From contig CACZLA010000020.1 in the NCBI GenBank assembly GCA_902781895.1, forward strand, positions 1-34,298: a stretch of DNA of 34,298 bases. The letters are read 5' to 3'. A program made the translations under genes and the position numbers. Positions 3,540 to 12,095 of this stretch are shown piece by piece (the first letter of the stretch is position 1; the number at the start of each line of letters is the position of its first letter). A model generated the notes under the pieces. It saw only the letters and a list, made by a program, of their open reading frames with translations, did no database searches and was not told the DNA's origin. This stretch comes from an uncultured Lachnospiraceae bacterium (GTDB taxonomy: Bacteria > Bacillota > Clostridia > Lachnospirales > Lachnospiraceae).

Positions 3540-4253
3540 TCAATTAGGCATATTTCTCATAAGCTTGTATTTTGCTGAATCATATTTTTCCATGAAATGT
3601 AATAAATCCTTAGTAATATCTGCCTTTTCTTCGATAGCTTCAAAATATGAATTGTATTCCTCTTCGAATTCAGGATCTGAGATTAATAATTCATTTTCTT
3701 TTTCCTTGAGCACCTCAGATGCTGATTTGTCAGGCATACCATCCCATGGCTCGGATTCAATTAGCTCGAGTACTTTGTCGATATACGATTTGGCTTTGCT
3801 TTCGGGAATGTTATGATAAGCATAACCGACAGCTTGTGCAACATAGTCTTCATTTCCAAGTATACATCCACGGACGCGATAAATAGCATCAAATAAGTCT
3901 TCTAAATTGATCAAAGGAAGTATAAGAAACAATTGTGAAAAAGTGGAGATTTTACGGAACGGATTTCGATATAAATAATTTGCGCAGTCTATAGTATGTT
4001 GTAACCCTAAATTGGTGGTGACTGGAAAATCATCTTTTTGAAGATCATCAACAATTAGGGTGCCCAACTTACAACTAAATAATTCTGCTATTTTGGATAT
4101 AGTGTTTAGGGAGATATTGTCAACATGACCGTTTTCGAGAGCTGACAAACGACGTTTACTAATTCCGACTGCTAAAGCTAAATCATTTTGGCTAACTCCT
4201 ACTTCTTCTCTCATATCTCTTATATTCTTACCTAATAAACTGTAATTAATCAT
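3540..4253 (-). CDS. XRE-family transcriptional regulator, 237 residues
   Basis: An N-terminal XRE helix-turn-helix (residues about 8-62: LGKNIRDMREEVGVSQNDLA, GISKRRLSALENGHV, ISLNTISKIAELFSCKLGTLI) is followed by a helical domain of about 170 residues that I do not recognise (LEDLFDAIYRVRGCILGNEDYVAQAVGYAYHNI). AAGGAGG stands seven bases before the ATG, and a promoter with 17-base spacing lies at 4279-4307. The gene sits between the recombinase operon and the small protein at 2965, on the same strand but beyond the recombinase terminator, so it is transcribed separately. A role as the element's repressor or excision control protein is inferred from position only. Confidence 0.85.
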   Translation of the reverse strand: MINYSLLGKNIRDMREEVGVSQNDLALAVGISKRRLSALENGHVDNISLNTISKIAELFSCKLGTLIVDDLQKDDFPVTTNLGLQHTIDCANYLYRNPFRKISTFSQLFLILPLINLEDLFDAIYRVRGCILGNEDYVAQAVGYAYHNIPESKAKSYIDKVLELIESEPWDGMPDKSASEVLKEKENELLISDPEFEEEYNSYFEAIEEKADITKDLLHFMEKYDSAKYKLMRNMPN

Positions 4254-4523: not shown

Positions 4524-4549
4524 AGCCTTAAAAGGCACTCAGATCAAAA

Positions 4550-4581
4550 AAATACCCTCTGCCCAATTACAGAAGGTATTT
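4550..4581 (-). terminator. Rho-independent terminator of the recombinase operon
   Basis: AAATACC (4550-4556) and GGTATTT (4575-4581), with TCTG/CAGA continuing the stem, form a hairpin; on the minus strand it is followed by a T-run (4545-4551). It lies about 70 bases past the stop of the 476-residue recombinase. Confidence 0.75.
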
Positions 4582-4648
4582 CTATATTATAAATCGCTTA
4601 CATTTTCAGATTCATTATTTGTAACGATATTTTTCTGCTGTATAGATA

Positions 4649-6079
4649 TTACACCATAGATTCATCACAAAATTTATAAGCGCCATTTATTGAACTAACT
4701 ATATTTACTTGTCTACCATACTTTATATCTTCGGTATTATATTCTACTGATACATCTATTCCCTCCAATGATTTCAAAACCACATATATATTATCTCCAG
4801 GTTCATTTCCATTTATTTTAATCTTAAGTTTCTCACAATCCTCATTAGTTTGTATTTCCTCTCTATAGTGGCTATTGTTCTTTCTGATGAGATTAGTGTT
4901 GTGATTATCTAGATGACCATTCAGAAATCCATTTACAGGAAGACTATCCAACTTATGTTTAATCTTAATCAACTCTCTCTCATTTGTAACAACATTTCTG
5001 CAATAATATGGATCCTCTATTTCGTGTCCCATAAAATATTGAATCTGATACATCTCCATTCCTATATTATAAAGACTCGTTCCTCGATTTCTCCTAAATA
5101 TATATGTGGTCGGTTCCTTTTCCATAACACCGACATCATCTAAATCACCACTGCTTATGTCTTTAAAGAGTTCACTTAAACTAACACCCTCAATTTTTAA
5201 TTCTTTAAATAACTCATTTCCTCTCCTTATCAAATATTTAGTAGGAGATTTTTCATTATAATTCTTTCCGATACAGACAATTGGTAAATCATCAACACAT
5301 TTATATTCGGATTTCAGTACCAGTTTTCCTGATTCGACAAGAGCTTCTAAATATGTTTTTCTTTTCATCAAATAAACATATAAGAAGTCATATAACGGTA
5401 TTACCCTTGAAGCGTTTTTTGTTTTTCCACCTGCTTTTCGCTTACTAGTGTTAATCATGGTAGTTTCATATACCCATACACACGCATTACCAGGGTATTC
5501 TTTCATTTCTCTGATATCCTTATAATCAAGCGCACATACTTCATTCTCACGAAAAGCTAATAAAAACATAAGTAAAAGCCCAAGATCTTCACCTGATATT
5601 TCTTCCGGTTTTTTATATAGCGCTAAAAAAATACGTTGTTCTTCACTAACAGTAAAAGATTTTTTTACTCTTACCATAAAATCAGTGCCACTTCCACTAG
5701 GTGAATAATAATCAGCACAGAAAGTAGCATCCTCATAATACCCCCTTCTAACCCCCTCTTTATAGATGCGATAATACCAATACCCTATATTATTCAATGT
5801 TGCATACGCATAGCCTTCATCATCCCTTTTGCTAAGTCTGTTATGAAGATCTCTAATATCCCTGTCATCCATTTTTCGTAATGGTTTATTCATATTAAGA
5901 TTTTCTATAAGCCTATTTATATAGTTTACATTTGTATCCCAGGAGTCTTCATTCCAGTTCTCATCGATCTGATATTCTTTATCATCAAAGATCTCATAAG
6001 TGAGACCAGCGAATGTTATTCCGCCTTCATATCCCTCCTTGGGATAGCCTCTAAGCAAAGCTTTCTTTCCAATCGCCAT
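4649..6079 (-). CDS. Tyrosine recombinase/integrase, 476 residues
   Basis: Residues about 45-125 form a helical core-binding domain (NYINRLIENLNMNKPLRKM and a following long helix). The catalytic domain starts near 140. Box I is LLAFRENEVCALDYKDI with Arg177. A beta-hairpin with Lys residues precedes RVIPL (211-229). Box II reads YIFRRNRGTSLYNIG (326-340), with Arg329 or Arg330 in place but Tyr where HxxR normally has His. QYFMGHEIEDPYYCRN supplies the second His (352) and the nucleophile Tyr358 or 359. An unusual C-terminal extension of about 100 residues ends in a beta-rich segment (DNIYVVLKSLEGIDVSVEY). The start lies seven bases after the 1046-residue gene, so the two are co-transcribed and probably work together. 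The enzyme would cut and rejoin DNA at attachment sites. Which DNA it moves is unknown. Confidence 0.85.
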   Translation of the reverse strand: MAIGKKALLRGYPKEGYEGGITFAGLTYEIFDDKEYQIDENWNEDSWDTNVNYINRLIENLNMNKPLRKMDDRDIRDLHNRLSKRDDEGYAYATLNNIGYWYYRIYKEGVRRGYYEDATFCADYYSPSGSGTDFMVRVKKSFTVSEEQRIFLALYKKPEEISGEDLGLLLMFLLAFRENEVCALDYKDIREMKEYPGNACVWVYETTMINTSKRKAGGKTKNASRVIPLYDFLYVYLMKRKTYLEALVESGKLVLKSEYKCVDDLPIVCIGKNYNEKSPTKYLIRRGNELFKELKIEGVSLSELFKDISSGDLDDVGVMEKEPTTYIFRRNRGTSLYNIGMEMYQIQYFMGHEIEDPYYCRNVVTNERELIKIKHKLDSLPVNGFLNGHLDNHNTNLIRKNNSHYREEIQTNEDCEKLKIKINGNEPGDNIYVVLKSLEGIDVSVEYNTEDIKYGRQVNIVSSINGAYKFCDESMV

Positions 6080-6086
6080 ATCTATC

Positions 6087-9000
6087 CTACCTCTTTATCT
6101 CAGACACATTAACATTCATACCATAATCATTTTTGATATCTACACGTACATTTTTCTTAGGGTTAGTAATTTCTACGTTTACTTCAATAGGTTTAGCGGC
6201 ATTTTTATATTCTTCAGGAATAGATATAACCATATCTTTCTGATTTATGTAATTTTCTCTTACTGTATATCCAATATCCTCGCCAAATAATTCCGCCTCA
6301 TACCTATGTAGTTTTACATTCAATCCACAAAGTGAAGCATCATTATTAAAATCATTATAATGTCTGGCAAAAGTAGAAAAACACTTATTCCCCTTCATAA
6401 ATGCCAGTTCGTCCATAGTAAACCCAAAATGATTCAAAGCATAATACTCAAAATTTGTTATGTATATATCCCCTCCGAATGAGGATGTGTCAAATTCCGT
6501 AACATCGCCATTTACCATCAATTCAATTATATTCGAGTCATCCGTTACACTAGAAAGCACATCTTTCCAAAGAGCTCGAAGCTTAGATGGATTAATAGGG
6601 GCTTTTCCCCATGAATCAGAATCATTGCCATCATCAGTAAAAATATATAGTTCATTAATTTCTTGATCCGATAACGATCTTGTATTTTTAATATAGTTTA
6701 TTCTTTCACTAATTCTATCGTATAACACTCTTGGAAAAGGTAGATAACGATATTGTTCAATCTTTTTAAACGGCACCACCTTATTATCTTTATCAACATA
6801 TCCTGATATCTTTATTTTATATAATCCAGGATAATCATCCATATGGATAATATCGCCAAATTTTAATGCAGCAACAGTTTTTGTATCCAAAGGCAATAGC
6901 ATTTTTACCATTGCACTAAAATAATTCCATTCTTCTCCTATGTTATTATCAATATATTTTATCTGGTTATCTATTTCCTTAGCAGTAAATGTCTTTTTTA
7001 CTAAGGCATTCCTCACTTCTGATATTCTATTTCTTTCGTATTTTTCTGCCTTTGAAAACTCTGCTTTCAGTTTATTATCCTTGAGAAGTCCAACTTCACA
7101 TGCATAGTCCAAAGAAATTGATAATGCTTTTAGTACTTCTGTGGTAGTTTTGTTAGAAGAATCAGATATTTCATTCATATAAAAGAAACACTGTTCCATA
7201 TCAAGCTGAGACAATTTGAAATATCCCAGATCACACGAAGCCGCAACTTTTAATGAATCATACAGTCTTCCAAGTTTGTCTTTGAGTTCAGGATAAATAA
7301 ACCAAAACGTTTTTAAACTAATATCTTCTATAGCCTTACTGGTAATACTGTTTTTTATTTCGGAAGAAATAATAGTTCTGATTGAAACTCCGGATTTGTC
7401 TGTTATGAATGGATATGCGTTTTCTATCCACTCGTAGAATTCATTATTTAATCTATCCTCTGAATCAAATCGCCTAAAAGCTTCTGTTTTCTTATCCTTA
7501 ATTAACCTTTTACCTTTATTACCTTTAACAGTCTGACCTTTATTATCTTCTTTTTCTATTATTCTTTCACATGTATGATACACGCAGGTTCTGCATCCAT
7601 TATCGCCTGGCATTATGTTGTAGAAAAATGTTATCTCTGGAGAATAATAGTATTCTTCTTTTCTTCTTCTTTTTCCTTTTAACCCCGTCTTTTCTAAGCA
7701 TATCATGTTATAAAGTTTAACTATCGAAACCTTACCAGCAATTATGTTGTTCTTACCCACATCTATAATCTGATTCTTTTTAGCATATTGTATTCTATTC
7801 TCATCAGTATGTAGTCCAAACTTTGTTACATTTATTTTTTCATTTCGATATATAGAATCTACAACCACAAATATCTTTCTTTTCGGATAAGACGCATTTA
7901 CTATACCCTGTGGCATAAGTTCAATCTTTGAAATATTCATCTTGTCATTTACAGCAAATAATTCTTGTATAGGGTCTATGATTCTATTTGCATAATTAGC
8001 AACCAGTAACAATGCCACCTTTGTATCTACGCTAAAAAGCGCTATATTATCTTGAATCCATTTATTCTGTTCAATCACATTACCATGATTTCCAAAATAA
8101 ATTACCGTATCATAGTGATGATTAATGTTTCTATCCTTAAACCTATTCCAATCCTTAACGGACATAAACTCAGCCACATTACTTTTGGGAATAATATTAT
8201 ATTTTTGCTTATATGCAGTTCTTAGGAATTTTGCTTCTTCATCACTCAGAATAAATCTGTATCGATTAATACCAGTCAGATTATTATCATTTAATAGTTT
8301 ATTCACGAAAAAAATGGAAGGATTGAATACAGTAACATCCTTCAATACTGCATCACCCTTCAATACAGTATCATCCTTCAATACAGAACCGGCACATTCT
8401 TTCAGCAATGGAATCAATCTTGAATAAACCAATGTCTGCTCCAGATTATAATCATTCTCAGAATCATCATATCCTTTCAGCAACATTAATATTGACAAAG
8501 GATTCCATTGATAGATTCCTCTCATTATTTTTTCAATCTTTTTGTCATTACTTATATCGAGTGACTTTAAATAATCCTTATACTCTTTATCCCCCATATA
8601 TTTGCTATATATAAGATCAAGAAGGTATGGAACAAATAAACGTATATCCTGAATAGGATCTTTATCATGCCCTAATTCTGAAATAATATTCTGTATATCT
8701 AAACGCTCTTTGTTTAGTTTCTTGGAAGTCAAAGCTTTTGCTGGATAGTAATTCAATTCATAATATAGAAATGATGATAATAATCTTTTACTCTCTTCGA
8801 TGCTTATCATTCTAAACATATCTAGATTATAACTAGCCCTTGCGTAATCTTTAAATCTTTCAAAAAATTCTTCACCTGAATATCTTTCAGACATTGAATA
8901 CTTTTCATATTCATACAGAATACATACCATTGCAGCTTTTTCTGTATTGCTTCGACACAGCTTATCTAATTCTTCATTTAACGCTTTGGGATTTCCAACA

Positions 9001-9227
9001 ATAGATGGCGTAACAAAAACCAAAAAATCATAAAATGACTGAAGCTTTAGTATTTCATCATTTATACTTTGGCGAATATGATATTCAATATCAATTTTGA
9101 ATTTTTGGAGAGACGAATCCAGTCCATCATCATATGATCTGACTGTGAGATAGATCCTCATCATATTATATTCATTGATTTCACAATCAGAATTATGAAG
9201 TGCATCAATTATATGTCTTCTTAGCAT
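6087..9227 (-). CDS. Giant recombinase-associated protein with degenerate tyrosine-recombinase C-terminal domain, 1046 residues
   Basis: No named family is recognised for residues 1-740. They are helical and charged, with a low-complexity VLKDDTVLKGDAVLKD repeat (282-297) and a possible zinc knuckle CRTCVYHTC (Cys545, Cys548, His551, Cys553) followed by a lysine-rich stretch. Residues about 745-965 follow the plan of a tyrosine recombinase catalytic domain and can be laid beside the partner gene: LLPLDTKTVAALKFGDI matches box I but has Asp781 for the essential Arg; PFKKIEQYRYLPFP matches the Lys hairpin; YITNFEYYALNHFGFTMDELAFMKGNK matches box II without Arg or the second His; TFARHYNDF holds a Tyr. 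It is therefore probably not catalytic. A beta-rich tail (EVNVEITNPKKNVRVDIKN) echoes the partner's. AAGGTGG precedes the ATG. A role as DNA-binding or targeting subunit, as in multi-recombinase transposons, is inferred. Confidence 0.7.
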   Translation of the reverse strand: MLRRHIIDALHNSDCEINEYNMMRIYLTVRSYDDGLDSSLQKFKIDIEYHIRQSINDEILKLQSFYDFLVFVTPSIVGNPKALNEELDKLCRSNTEKAAMVCILYEYEKYSMSERYSGEEFFERFKDYARASYNLDMFRMISIEESKRLLSSFLYYELNYYPAKALTSKKLNKERLDIQNIISELGHDKDPIQDIRLFVPYLLDLIYSKYMGDKEYKDYLKSLDISNDKKIEKIMRGIYQWNPLSILMLLKGYDDSENDYNLEQTLVYSRLIPLLKECAGSVLKDDTVLKGDAVLKDVTVFNPSIFFVNKLLNDNNLTGINRYRFILSDEEAKFLRTAYKQKYNIIPKSNVAEFMSVKDWNRFKDRNINHHYDTVIYFGNHGNVIEQNKWIQDNIALFSVDTKVALLLVANYANRIIDPIQELFAVNDKMNISKIELMPQGIVNASYPKRKIFVVVDSIYRNEKINVTKFGLHTDENRIQYAKKNQIIDVGKNNIIAGKVSIVKLYNMICLEKTGLKGKRRRKEEYYYSPEITFFYNIMPGDNGCRTCVYHTCERIIEKEDNKGQTVKGNKGKRLIKDKKTEAFRRFDSEDRLNNEFYEWIENAYPFITDKSGVSIRTIISSEIKNSITSKAIEDISLKTFWFIYPELKDKLGRLYDSLKVAASCDLGYFKLSQLDMEQCFFYMNEISDSSNKTTTEVLKALSISLDYACEVGLLKDNKLKAEFSKAEKYERNRISEVRNALVKKTFTAKEIDNQIKYIDNNIGEEWNYFSAMVKMLLPLDTKTVAALKFGDIIHMDDYPGLYKIKISGYVDKDNKVVPFKKIEQYRYLPFPRVLYDRISERINYIKNTRSLSDQEINELYIFTDDGNDSDSWGKAPINPSKLRALWKDVLSSVTDDSNIIELMVNGDVTEFDTSSFGGDIYITNFEYYALNHFGFTMDELAFMKGNKCFSTFARHYNDFNNDASLCGLNVKLHRYEAELFGEDIGYTVRENYINQKDMVISIPEEYKNAAKPIEVNVEITNPKKNVRVDIKNDYGMNVNVSEIKR
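8321..8389. repeat. 18-base tandem repeat inside the giant recombinase-associated gene
   Basis: CATCCTTCAATACTG, CACCCTTCAATACAG and CATCCTTCAATACAG recur every 18 bases (8336-8389), with a weaker unit at 8321-8335. In protein they give three VLK(D/G)D units. The period keeps frame, so unit number may vary without loss of the gene. Confidence 0.75.
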
Positions 9228-9250
9228 TTAACCCACCTTATTTATTATTT

Positions 9251-9309
9251 TGGCAATTGTTTAACTTTACTTTTGTTCAGATTTTACAATTTTTATTGCC
9301 ATTTGAAAA
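9251..9309 (-). promoter_or_regulatory. Candidate promoter of the recombinase operon with inverted repeat
   Basis: On the minus strand TTTTCA (9304-9309), 17 bases, TAAAAT (9281-9286). Arms TGGCAAT (9251-9257) and ATTGCCA (9295-9301) bracket the -10 box, with one arm in the spacer, which could be a repressor site. Hexamers are weak matches. Confidence 0.35.
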
Positions 9310-9353
9310 GCATTTTTTACCATAAATGGGTCAACTCGATATTTTTAGAAAAT

Positions 9354-9396
9354 AAAAAAATCCCGCAAACGCCCTATTTATAAGCGTTTGCGGGAT
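9354..9396 (-). terminator. Rho-independent terminator of rplJ-rplL
   Basis: A perfect 13-base stem, ATCCCGCAAACGC (9360-9372) with GCGTTTGCGGGAT (9384-9396), followed on the minus strand by seven T. It lies 20 bases past the rplL stop and closes the ribosomal operon before the recombinase operon starts. Confidence 0.93.
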
Positions 9397-9415
9397 ATAG
9401 AAGTTCAAAAATAAA

Positions 9416-9784
9416 TTACTTAAGAGTGATCTTAGCTCCAACTTCCTCAAACTTCTTCTGGATATCCTCAGCCTCTGCCTTAGATACAGCTTCCTTAAGT
9501 ACCTTTGGTGCACTCTCAACTGCTTCCTTAGCTTCCTTAAGTCCAAGACCTGTTACGTCACGAACAACCTTGATAACCTTGATCTTCTCTGATCCAACTT
9601 CTGTAAGCTCTACATCGAACTCATCCTTATCAGCTGCGCCTGCATCTGCGCCTGCACCTGCTGCTGCAACTACTACTCCAGCTGCTGCTGAAACACCATA
9701 CTTCTCTTCTACTGCCTTTACAAGATCGTTAAGCTCAAGTACTGAGAGCTCGTCTATAGCAGCTACTAATTCTTCTACTGTCAT
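9416..9784 (-). CDS. rplL: 50S ribosomal protein L7/L12
   Basis: The 122-residue product is full length. It has the N-terminal dimerisation helices ([30 protein letters not shown]), an alanine/glycine hinge ([19 protein letters not shown]) and the C-terminal factor-binding domain with [32 protein letters not shown]. It forms the ribosome stalk with L10 and recruits translation GTPases. GGAGG lies nine bases before the ATG. It is the second gene after rplJ, under the L10 leader, and ends at a strong terminator. In most Firmicutes rpoB follows; here an accessory recombinase operon does. Confidence 0.97.
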
Positions 9785-10637: not shown

Positions 10638-12095
10638 ATGAAAAAAAGAATAATCAAGGCATTTATTGTCACAATGATTGTTGCGGTCTTTTTCCCAGGG
10701 GCAGCATTTGTATCAAATGCAGGAGGTTATTCCGGCGATGATATCTCCGGTTACGATCCTGTAAAAAATGAATACTATTCTTATTACTGGCAGGAGGGAA
10801 TGAAGGAGCCGGAAAAAACATACTGGCAGTGGGATTATGACGTTGCAGAAGATGATGATGAATATATATCTGTCACTTATTATAAAAACACAAATACCGG
10901 GGCGATATTAAAAGATGGCTGGTATGTAATAAACGGTGAAGATGTATATTTTACAGAAAAAGGCTATGCAAAAACCGGTTTCTTAAACGGCAGAGAAACT
11001 AAAGAAGGCGGCTGGGATCTTGGATATAAGAATGTATATAAAACCAATCCGGCAGGAAAATACGGTGATGATCTAAAGAAGCTGGAAAAGGTTAAATACG
11101 ACTGGATCACAGATTCAAAGGGTACAAGATACGGTGCAACCGGTTATTACTATGCTGATTCATCCGAAGATCCATCTGTAGATTCAAACGGAGTTGCAAA
11201 AGGAACCTGGTATTTAAAGGGTACAGTCAGCTATATTAAAAAGAACACAGACTGGGCGATGTGTACTATCGACGATAAGAATTACAGATTCGAATCAGAC
11301 GGCTATATCGCTAAGGATTTATGGTTTGATGATGGTTTTGATATTAACGGCACATGGGAATCCTCATGGAAATATGCAACATCTGACGGTTCCCTCGCTG
11401 TCGGCTGGAACGAAATAAACGGAAGCTGGTATTACTTCGGAAAAGACAACGTAATGAAAACCTCACAGGTTGTTGACGGTTATTATTTGGATGAAAGCGG
11501 AACCATTTCCACCAAAACCGGCTGGTTCAACAACTGGTTCTGGGTAGACAAAGGAAATGGAATCTGGCAGGACGAATGGATATATCTCGACTCTGACGGC
11601 AAAGTCAGATTAGGCTGGACCGAAATTGATGGAGAATGGTATTATTTCGGTGACAATGGTGTTATGTACTACAGCGCTTCAAAGGACGGATATTATCTTA
11701 CAAAGGACGGCACTCTCGGAAAGGGTGGATGGTATCAGGACTGGTATTGGATAGATCCCGAGGCAGGAACATGGGACTATGAATGGCATTATACATATAG
11801 CGACGGTTCAGTAGCCACCGGATGGACAAAGCTGAACGACACATGGTACTATTTCTATCCGAGCACTGGTATTATGGCAAGTAATGCATATGTTGACGGT
11901 TACTATATAAATAAAGATGGAATCATTGATGAAAGCTCTACCGGAGCCTGGTATCAGGATGATAAAGGCTGGTATTTCATGGATTCAAATAACTGGTATC
12001 CTTCAAACACCGGATATATGATCGACGGAGAGTATTACGAGTTTGATGAAAACGGATATATGAAGGTTAATAAACCCGAAGATAAAAAACAATAA
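10638..12095 (+). CDS. Secreted protein built of choline-binding-type (CW) repeats, 485 residues
   Basis: A classic signal peptide (basic start, hydrophobic AFIVTMIVAVFFPGAAFV, cleavage near SNAGG) precedes aromatic-rich repeats of the choline-binding/glucan-binding type: GWYVINGEDVYFTEKGYAKTGF, then three long units of about 65 residues each, with cores NGSWYYFGKDNVMKTSQVVDG, DGEWYYFGDNGVM and NDTWYYFYPSTGIM, each followed by DGYYL or DGYYI and a GWxxxWxW segment. No catalytic domain is visible, so it is probably a surface protein held by teichoic acid or polysaccharide through the repeats. It is the only long plus-strand gene in the core-like region. AAGGAGG precedes the ATG. Its ligand is unknown. 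Confidence 0.85.
   Translation: MKKRIIKAFIVTMIVAVFFPGAAFVSNAGGYSGDDISGYDPVKNEYYSYYWQEGMKEPEKTYWQWDYDVAEDDDEYISVTYYKNTNTGAILKDGWYVINGEDVYFTEKGYAKTGFLNGRETKEGGWDLGYKNVYKTNPAGKYGDDLKKLEKVKYDWITDSKGTRYGATGYYYADSSEDPSVDSNGVAKGTWYLKGTVSYIKKNTDWAMCTIDDKNYRFESDGYIAKDLWFDDGFDINGTWESSWKYATSDGSLAVGWNEINGSWYYFGKDNVMKTSQVVDGYYLDESGTISTKTGWFNNWFWVDKGNGIWQDEWIYLDSDGKVRLGWTEIDGEWYYFGDNGVMYYSASKDGYYLTKDGTLGKGGWYQDWYWIDPEAGTWDYEWHYTYSDGSVATGWTKLNDTWYYFYPSTGIMASNAYVDGYYINKDGIIDESSTGAWYQDDKGWYFMDSNNWYPSNTGYMIDGEYYEFDENGYMKVNKPEDKKQ

Follow-up and report, generated by a model that had tools for sequence, protein, structure and literature searches.

A conserved gene pair of gut and rumen bacteria joins an enzyme-like tyrosine recombinase to a degenerate partner with a predicted methyltransferase fold

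Computational comparison of eight loci reveals a conserved pair of adjacent genes, here called Large and Small, in some gut and rumen bacteria. We class the pair as a multi-recombinase system that includes an unusual fusion. Small is enzyme-like, while Large appears doubly dead, as a recombinase and as a predicted methyltransferase. We tentatively regard the two proteins, with slightly less than an even chance, as one heteromeric site-specific recombinase unit in which Large would set the architecture or the target; the mechanism of such a unit is what we infer. The window from which the analysis started is one entire contig of 34,298 nucleotides (CACZLA010000020.1) from an uncultured Lachnospiraceae bacterium, with only about 4.6 kb on the far side of the pair.

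The gene arrangement agrees with the first-pass annotation, which had described a two-gene operon of an active tyrosine recombinase and a giant, catalytically dead partner. Both open reading frames are present as described (1046 and 476 aa), with Large upstream and Small downstream, 7 nt apart (Table 1). The terminator thought to be shared by the two genes is plausible: the hairpin behind Small has a folding energy of -18.6 kcal/mol (z -6.2), and none of 200 shuffled sequences was equally stable. A simple consensus terminator scan does not list it. The host gene upstream of the pair is taken to be rplL (ribosomal protein L7/L12) from its translation, without a family call. Downstream of the pair the window contains an HTH protein (3540-4253) and an ORF-poor stretch. 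Few long ORFs are found at 1900-2950, between HTH genes, and this region may have decayed; the HTH ORF at 562-1389 and the ORF that follows it share 41 bp. A choline-binding repeat protein (10638-12095, Pfam) lies beside what is presumably rplJ.

Table 1. Features of the recombinase pair and its surroundings. Positions refer to the window unless a locus is named.
Feature	Position	Strand	Remarks
Large gene, 1046 aa	6087-9227	-	predicted methyltransferase-like domain, degenerate tyrosine recombinase, tail
Large residues 1-252	8472-9227	-	predicted mostly helical; 1-172 with pLDDT <50
Large residues 253-512	7692-8471	-	predicted adenine DNA methyltransferase fold
Large residues 635-951	6375-7325	-	putative tyrosine-recombinase core-binding and catalytic region; D781, I923, N947
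Large His956-Tyr957	6357-6362	-	invariant in 8/8 Large proteins
Large residues 983-1046	6090-6281	-	tail, partly aligned to the Small tail by hhalign
Large/Small gap, 7 nt	6080-6086	-
Small gene, 476 aa	4649-6079	-	tyrosine recombinase; R177, K219, R329, H352; Y358 spacing non-canonical
Probable intrinsic terminator of the Large-Small operon	4548-4583	-	hairpin then T's
rplL	9416-9784	-	host gene upstream of the pair; name from translated sequence
rplL intrinsic terminator	9360-9396	-	directly upstream of the pair
Lone TTGACC	9329-9334	-	between the rplL terminator and Large
CoiA-like protein, L027	13198-14121		convergent with Small
CoiA-like protein, L005	12675-13580		convergent with Small
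CoiA-like protein, L009	10399-11373		convergent with Small
CoiA-like protein, L031	13424-14401		convergent with Small
CoiA-like protein, L032	13512-14534		convergent with Small

Small is, judging from its sequence, a member of the tyrosine recombinase superfamily. The window protein matches PHROG_1 with an E-value of 6e-17 and PF00589 with 4e-4, the latter under the curated cut-off; PF00589 is found in all seven Small proteins scanned (E <= 0.1, best 2.5e-6). Residues were counted in the seven complete proteins, excluding the L030 copy, which is cut by a contig end. In a joint alignment with four ordinary integrases, Arg177, Arg329 and His352 fall in the catalytic columns, as the first-pass annotation had it, and the same columns hold Arg, Arg and His in 7/7 Small proteins. 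Equally invariant (7/7) are Lys219, which we take for the beta-hairpin lysine, and Tyr326, three residues N-terminal of Arg329, at a position where integrases have a His. The Tyr of the proposed catalytic set fits less well: Tyr358 follows the His by six residues, whereas the spacing is nine in all four ordinary integrases compared. Six Small proteins have the Tyr at His+6, one at His+11 and none at His+9. The pairing of an enzyme-like with a degenerate recombinase is supported, but with this unusual Tyr spacing Small departs from the textbook enzyme.

Large and Small are homologous. Their hhalign comparison reaches a probability of 98.9 (E 1.4e-17) over 360 columns and extends into the tails. 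Both proteins have a recombinase-like domain followed by a tail. Taken alone, the window Large has no above-chance or convincing family match, and neither it nor Small matches a PADLOC defence family. PHROG_1 is matched by four of seven Large proteins, and Large profiles match integrase-sized frames of other genomes at E-values as low as 4e-11. In 56 of the 68 loci hit in this way, such a frame is matched by an ordinary-integrase profile, built from four integrases, as well (E <= 1e-5). PDB sequence-profile searches gave weak integrase matches only. Structure prediction, proposed earlier as a check on Large, yields a recombinase fold; recombinase matches for the window model appear in VIA-align, and there is no recombinase among the 50 Foldseek matches listed. 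By homology and predicted fold, the C-terminal part of Large classifies as a putative tyrosine recombinase.

Large is a paralogue of Small without the catalytic residues. Asp781, Ile923 and Asn947 stand at the Arg, Arg and His columns of the joint alignment with Small, confirming the losses of the box I Arg, box II Arg and second His that had been noted at first. Catalytic Arg I, Arg II and His III are missing in all eight Large proteins, which have D/A/A/A/P/S/S/S, I/L/V/L/L/Y/Y/V and N/I/R/V/N/N/N/I at the respective columns. The terminal Tyr957, likewise noted, is present and invariant (8/8) but lies one residue past the canonical column. It forms part of a His-Tyr found at this position in every Large protein. 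Of the 256 gapless columns, 16 are invariant, His956 and Tyr957 included.

About 740 residues in front of the recombinase part had been described as unrecognised. This description no longer holds for residues ~253-512, which have a predicted adenine-methyltransferase fold, albeit in a low-confidence model (mean pLDDT 54; 34-65 per ten residues in the methyltransferase part). The fold is better predicted in the L027 relative of Large, with pLDDT of 68-92 across residues 1-320; the methyltransferase and recombinase folds are predicted in these two models, one good and one poor. For the front of Large, the predicted fold is that of class I methyltransferases, of the kind acting on adenine in DNA. 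It resembles the methylation subunit of type I restriction-modification (R-M) systems and the adenine methyltransferases CamA and TaqI, and residues ~150-252 fall within some of the alignments to type I M subunits. Adenine methyltransferases carry a GxG-type motif I and a motif IV of the form [DNS]PP[YFW] (NPPY/F); neither pattern occurs in any of the eight Large proteins. Alignment of the domain to one HsdM-like sequence with hhalign gave a probability of 1.7, and a Pfam scan of the domain returned nothing convincing. A 1527-aa protein, presumably EssC-like, matched Large at residues 358-466 (E 2.5e-5; L006); we disregarded this match, which profile search did not recover.

Large and Small occur together and in the same order in 8/8 loci (in L030 with Small cut by the contig end), namely the window, six loci behind guaA and plasmid NZ_CP069422.1 of Aristaeella lactis. 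Independent occurrence, which would have spoken against the original proposal, is not seen in these loci. A degenerate scan of genome contigs with three Large sequences returned six loci, all with Large followed by Small; contigs G448 and G069 are two of the six guaA loci. The plasmid-encoded Large is matched with an hhalign probability of 99.7 (E 7e-26). Large frames are intact in eight diverged copies, six of which share 19-20% identity with the window protein. Full-length Large is present in two of 61 genomes of the genus and in two of 397 sampled genomes of the family, where nine others have short matches, eight of them in the recombinase part. Sampling of the class and the order (391 and 392 genomes) yielded no further Large apart from that in the window's own genome. 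Single-sequence scans with the window protein found no relative in genome or viral contigs, and the Large alignments and the Small alignment found none in viral contigs. Neither Large nor Small of L027 was matched in phage records. Among plasmid records the window Large matched nothing, and the Small proteins of L027 and of the window matched one record, whose own Large found itself only. Small was never seen without Large in the genus, viral contigs, phages or plasmids.

In all contexts the pair lies directly behind the terminator of another gene, the terminators outside the window having been judged by eye. In the six loci with guaA, a name that we assign from sequence, Large starts 158-269 bases past the guaA stop. 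Four of five genomes (L204-L212, the window's own included) have two guaA-like genes, a short one of ~327 aa and a full-length one, and pairs occur behind both forms. In every guaA locus except the truncated L030, five in all, Small is convergent with a gene whose product we label CoiA-like for its N-terminal Cys motifs, and a NikA-like protein and an ordinary integrase follow. One of three CoiA-like proteins scanned has a weak, sub-cut-off Pfam match to DUF7828. On the plasmid record, parts of the integrase (216 aa, 37.5%) and of the NikA-like protein (49 aa) are matched near the end; the CoiA-like protein is unmatched in the plasmid stretch. On this plasmid record (L143 1-8478), annotated genes for protein kinase, phosphatase, FHA, AAA ATPase and 4Fe-4S proteins precede the pair. 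The 34-kb contig of the window has no match to the integrase, NikA-like or CoiA-like protein of the guaA loci. The integrase and NikA-like module is common in Lachnospiraceae without the recombinase pair. We examined 20 stretches with related integrases (L184-L203; 1.8 to 19.9 kb each), one each from 20 of 54 matching genomes among 165 searched, with the pair-bearing G069 excluded. A NikA-like match is present in all 20, and Large, Small, the CoiA-like gene and guaA are absent throughout, suggesting that the pair is as a rule added to a widespread integrase module.

Just before Large, tandem TTGACC with an 11-bp period is found in five of six guaA loci and is off by one letter in the sixth. 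The window has one copy, and the plasmid has TGACC behind a hairpin seen by eye. Tandem TTGACC is absent from the 20 stretches around related integrases, 318 kb in total. This weakens the idea that TTGACC represents arm sites of the ordinary integrase, although the ends of those elements may lie beyond the stretches. In genome G413 (L065), where the search detected no Large, a near-identical rplL terminator precedes GTTGACCCA and AACAATTGCCAAAAT. AACAATTGCCAAAAT is a 15-base stretch common to G413 and the window, where it also lies ahead of Large, and TTGACC is common to both as well. The proposed search for an empty site behind rplL failed to yield one that closes among the 18 of 57 matching congeners compared. 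The DNA behind rplL varies among 18 congeners (window 9200-9420; L063-L080), in the manner of an insertion hotspot. For the left flank of the window, short matches only, at 63-78% identity, were found in 8/60 congeners. Neither a direct-repeat search nor 14-nt windows revealed att sites; three 12/14 matches in L028 are roughly at chance level by an uncomputed estimate. The rplL terminator hairpin was rejected as a repeated target, with one copy in four of eight genomes and none in the other four.

Pairing, shared ancestry and complementary residue loss suggest a mixed recombinase. Small would supply the catalytic Arg-Lys-Arg-His. Large, whose front would be a degenerate methyltransferase domain resembling the type I M subunit, would hold the complex to DNA and set its architecture or target. 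Islands would carry the unit, in most cases next to an ordinary integrase. Its place is directly after another gene's terminator, that of rplL in the window and of guaA in six loci. A targeting role of Large, raised in the first-pass annotation, is consistent with the predicted DNA-methyltransferase-like domain. Selection of the insertion site need not fall to the pair, since an ordinary integrase accompanies it in six of the seven other loci, the seventh being cut short. We infer that Large and Small associate, that the methyltransferase-like domain binds DNA, and that the DNA acted on is either the element ends or an internal site. The recombinase unit is favoured by the constant order in 8/8 loci with open, divergent Large frames, by the Large-Small homology (E 1.4e-17) and the predicted folds, by the loss of catalytic residues in 8/8 Large against their retention in 7/7 Small, and by the tandem TTGACC before Large, absent around the 20 integrases. 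A further argument comes from GInt, where, in the available text, ginC is an essential partner without catalytic residues (PMC5385486). The same reading is weakened by the non-canonical Tyr of Small, by a methyltransferase assignment that comes from predicted structure, and by the lack of att repeats, an empty site and element ends in our searches.

It is also weakened because the integrase and NikA-like protein could explain mobility without the pair. Large and Small might then be accessory to, or cargo of, integrase-driven islands, acting in defence, locus control or local DNA rearrangement. We give this a substantial, though minority, probability. The integrase and NikA-like protein do lie further on in five guaA loci and on the plasmid, and the module lacks the pair in 20/20 related loci; the plasmid matches raised our estimate of a cargo role somewhat and took the recombinase unit from an even chance to just below it. 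On the other hand, the window contig, with ~4.6 kb on the far side, has none of these three genes, PADLOC assigns neither protein to defence, and the pair always comes first behind a terminator (by eye outside the window). An active site composed of Arg, Lys, Arg and His from Small and Tyr from Large, with neither protein working alone, is unlikely. Large has kept His-Tyr in 8/8 copies after losing the other catalytic residues, and Small, with R, K, R and H in 7/7, has no Tyr at the canonical column, but the Tyr that Small does have (His+6 in 6/7, His+11 in 1/7) may be the nucleophile, and that of Large, one residue off, may be structural. The boldest form of this idea, which we likewise hold to be improbable, is a split enzyme of Small Arg-Lys-Arg-His and Large Tyr in which the former methyltransferase domain reads the target and strands can be cut only when both proteins are assembled on the correct DNA. 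Decay to a functionless remnant would fit the missing catalytic motifs and the rarity of the family (2/397 sampled genomes), but eight diverged copies are still open and share the same invariant residues, which leaves it very little probability.

A full-text search of the open-access literature found no published description of a methyltransferase-recombinase fusion. The type I R-M M subunit and the CamA/TaqI methyltransferases have a fold like that predicted for the Large front; unlike them, Large lacks the motif I and IV patterns in 8/8 copies and is fused to a recombinase. Flp cleaves in trans, with an active site shared between subunits. Flp is one protein, whereas a composite site would split the residues between two paralogues. 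RIT elements have three adjacent recombinases, versus two here.

The initial view that a giant pseudo-enzyme with a long unrecognised front does not match the multi-recombinase elements considered there needs correction, in that recombinase-fold partners lacking catalytic residues (SE Tfp, GInt GinC) and a long Tn554-like recombinase are already described in the available parts of the literature. According to the available text, Tn554 and Tn554-like actinobacterial elements (TnpA/TnpB/TnpC) include one recombinase whose N-terminus is extended by >400 aa of unknown nature; as in our pair, two tyrosine recombinases are adjacent, one normal-sized and one abnormally long. There the long protein keeps a potential catalytic motif, whereas Large lacks Arg, Arg and His in 8/8 (PMC3414803). 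Strand-biased circularizing integrative elements (SE), described for Gammaproteobacteria only in the part of the paper available, encode intA, tfp, intB and srap. They resemble the pair in having an ordinary and a large recombinase, together with Tfp, which has a recombinase fold without catalytic residues; their inactive and large proteins are separate, in a set of four genes, whereas Large is both (PMC10214605). Compared with the SE operon intA-tfp-intB plus srap and terminal inverted repeats, we see two adjacent recombinase-like genes, with element ends not located. In GInt, as far as the available text goes, the ginABCD operon lies at one end of the island, has examples in Firmicutes too and needs all four genes; GinC lacks the first Arg, yet ginC is essential. 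GInt has three adjacent integrases and a small fourth protein (ginD), versus two genes here (PMC5385486). Tn554, SE and GInt include seemingly inactive yet required proteins, whose exact role is not established in the available parts of the cited work (PMC3414803, PMC10214605, PMC5385486). In our pair the catalytic residues seem to be shared out between the two proteins, and the role of the inactive subunit, be it targeting, assembly or Tyr donation, becomes testable with two proteins and point mutants. What the pair adds to these systems is an inactive recombinase partner fused to a predicted DNA-methyltransferase fold without its chemistry.
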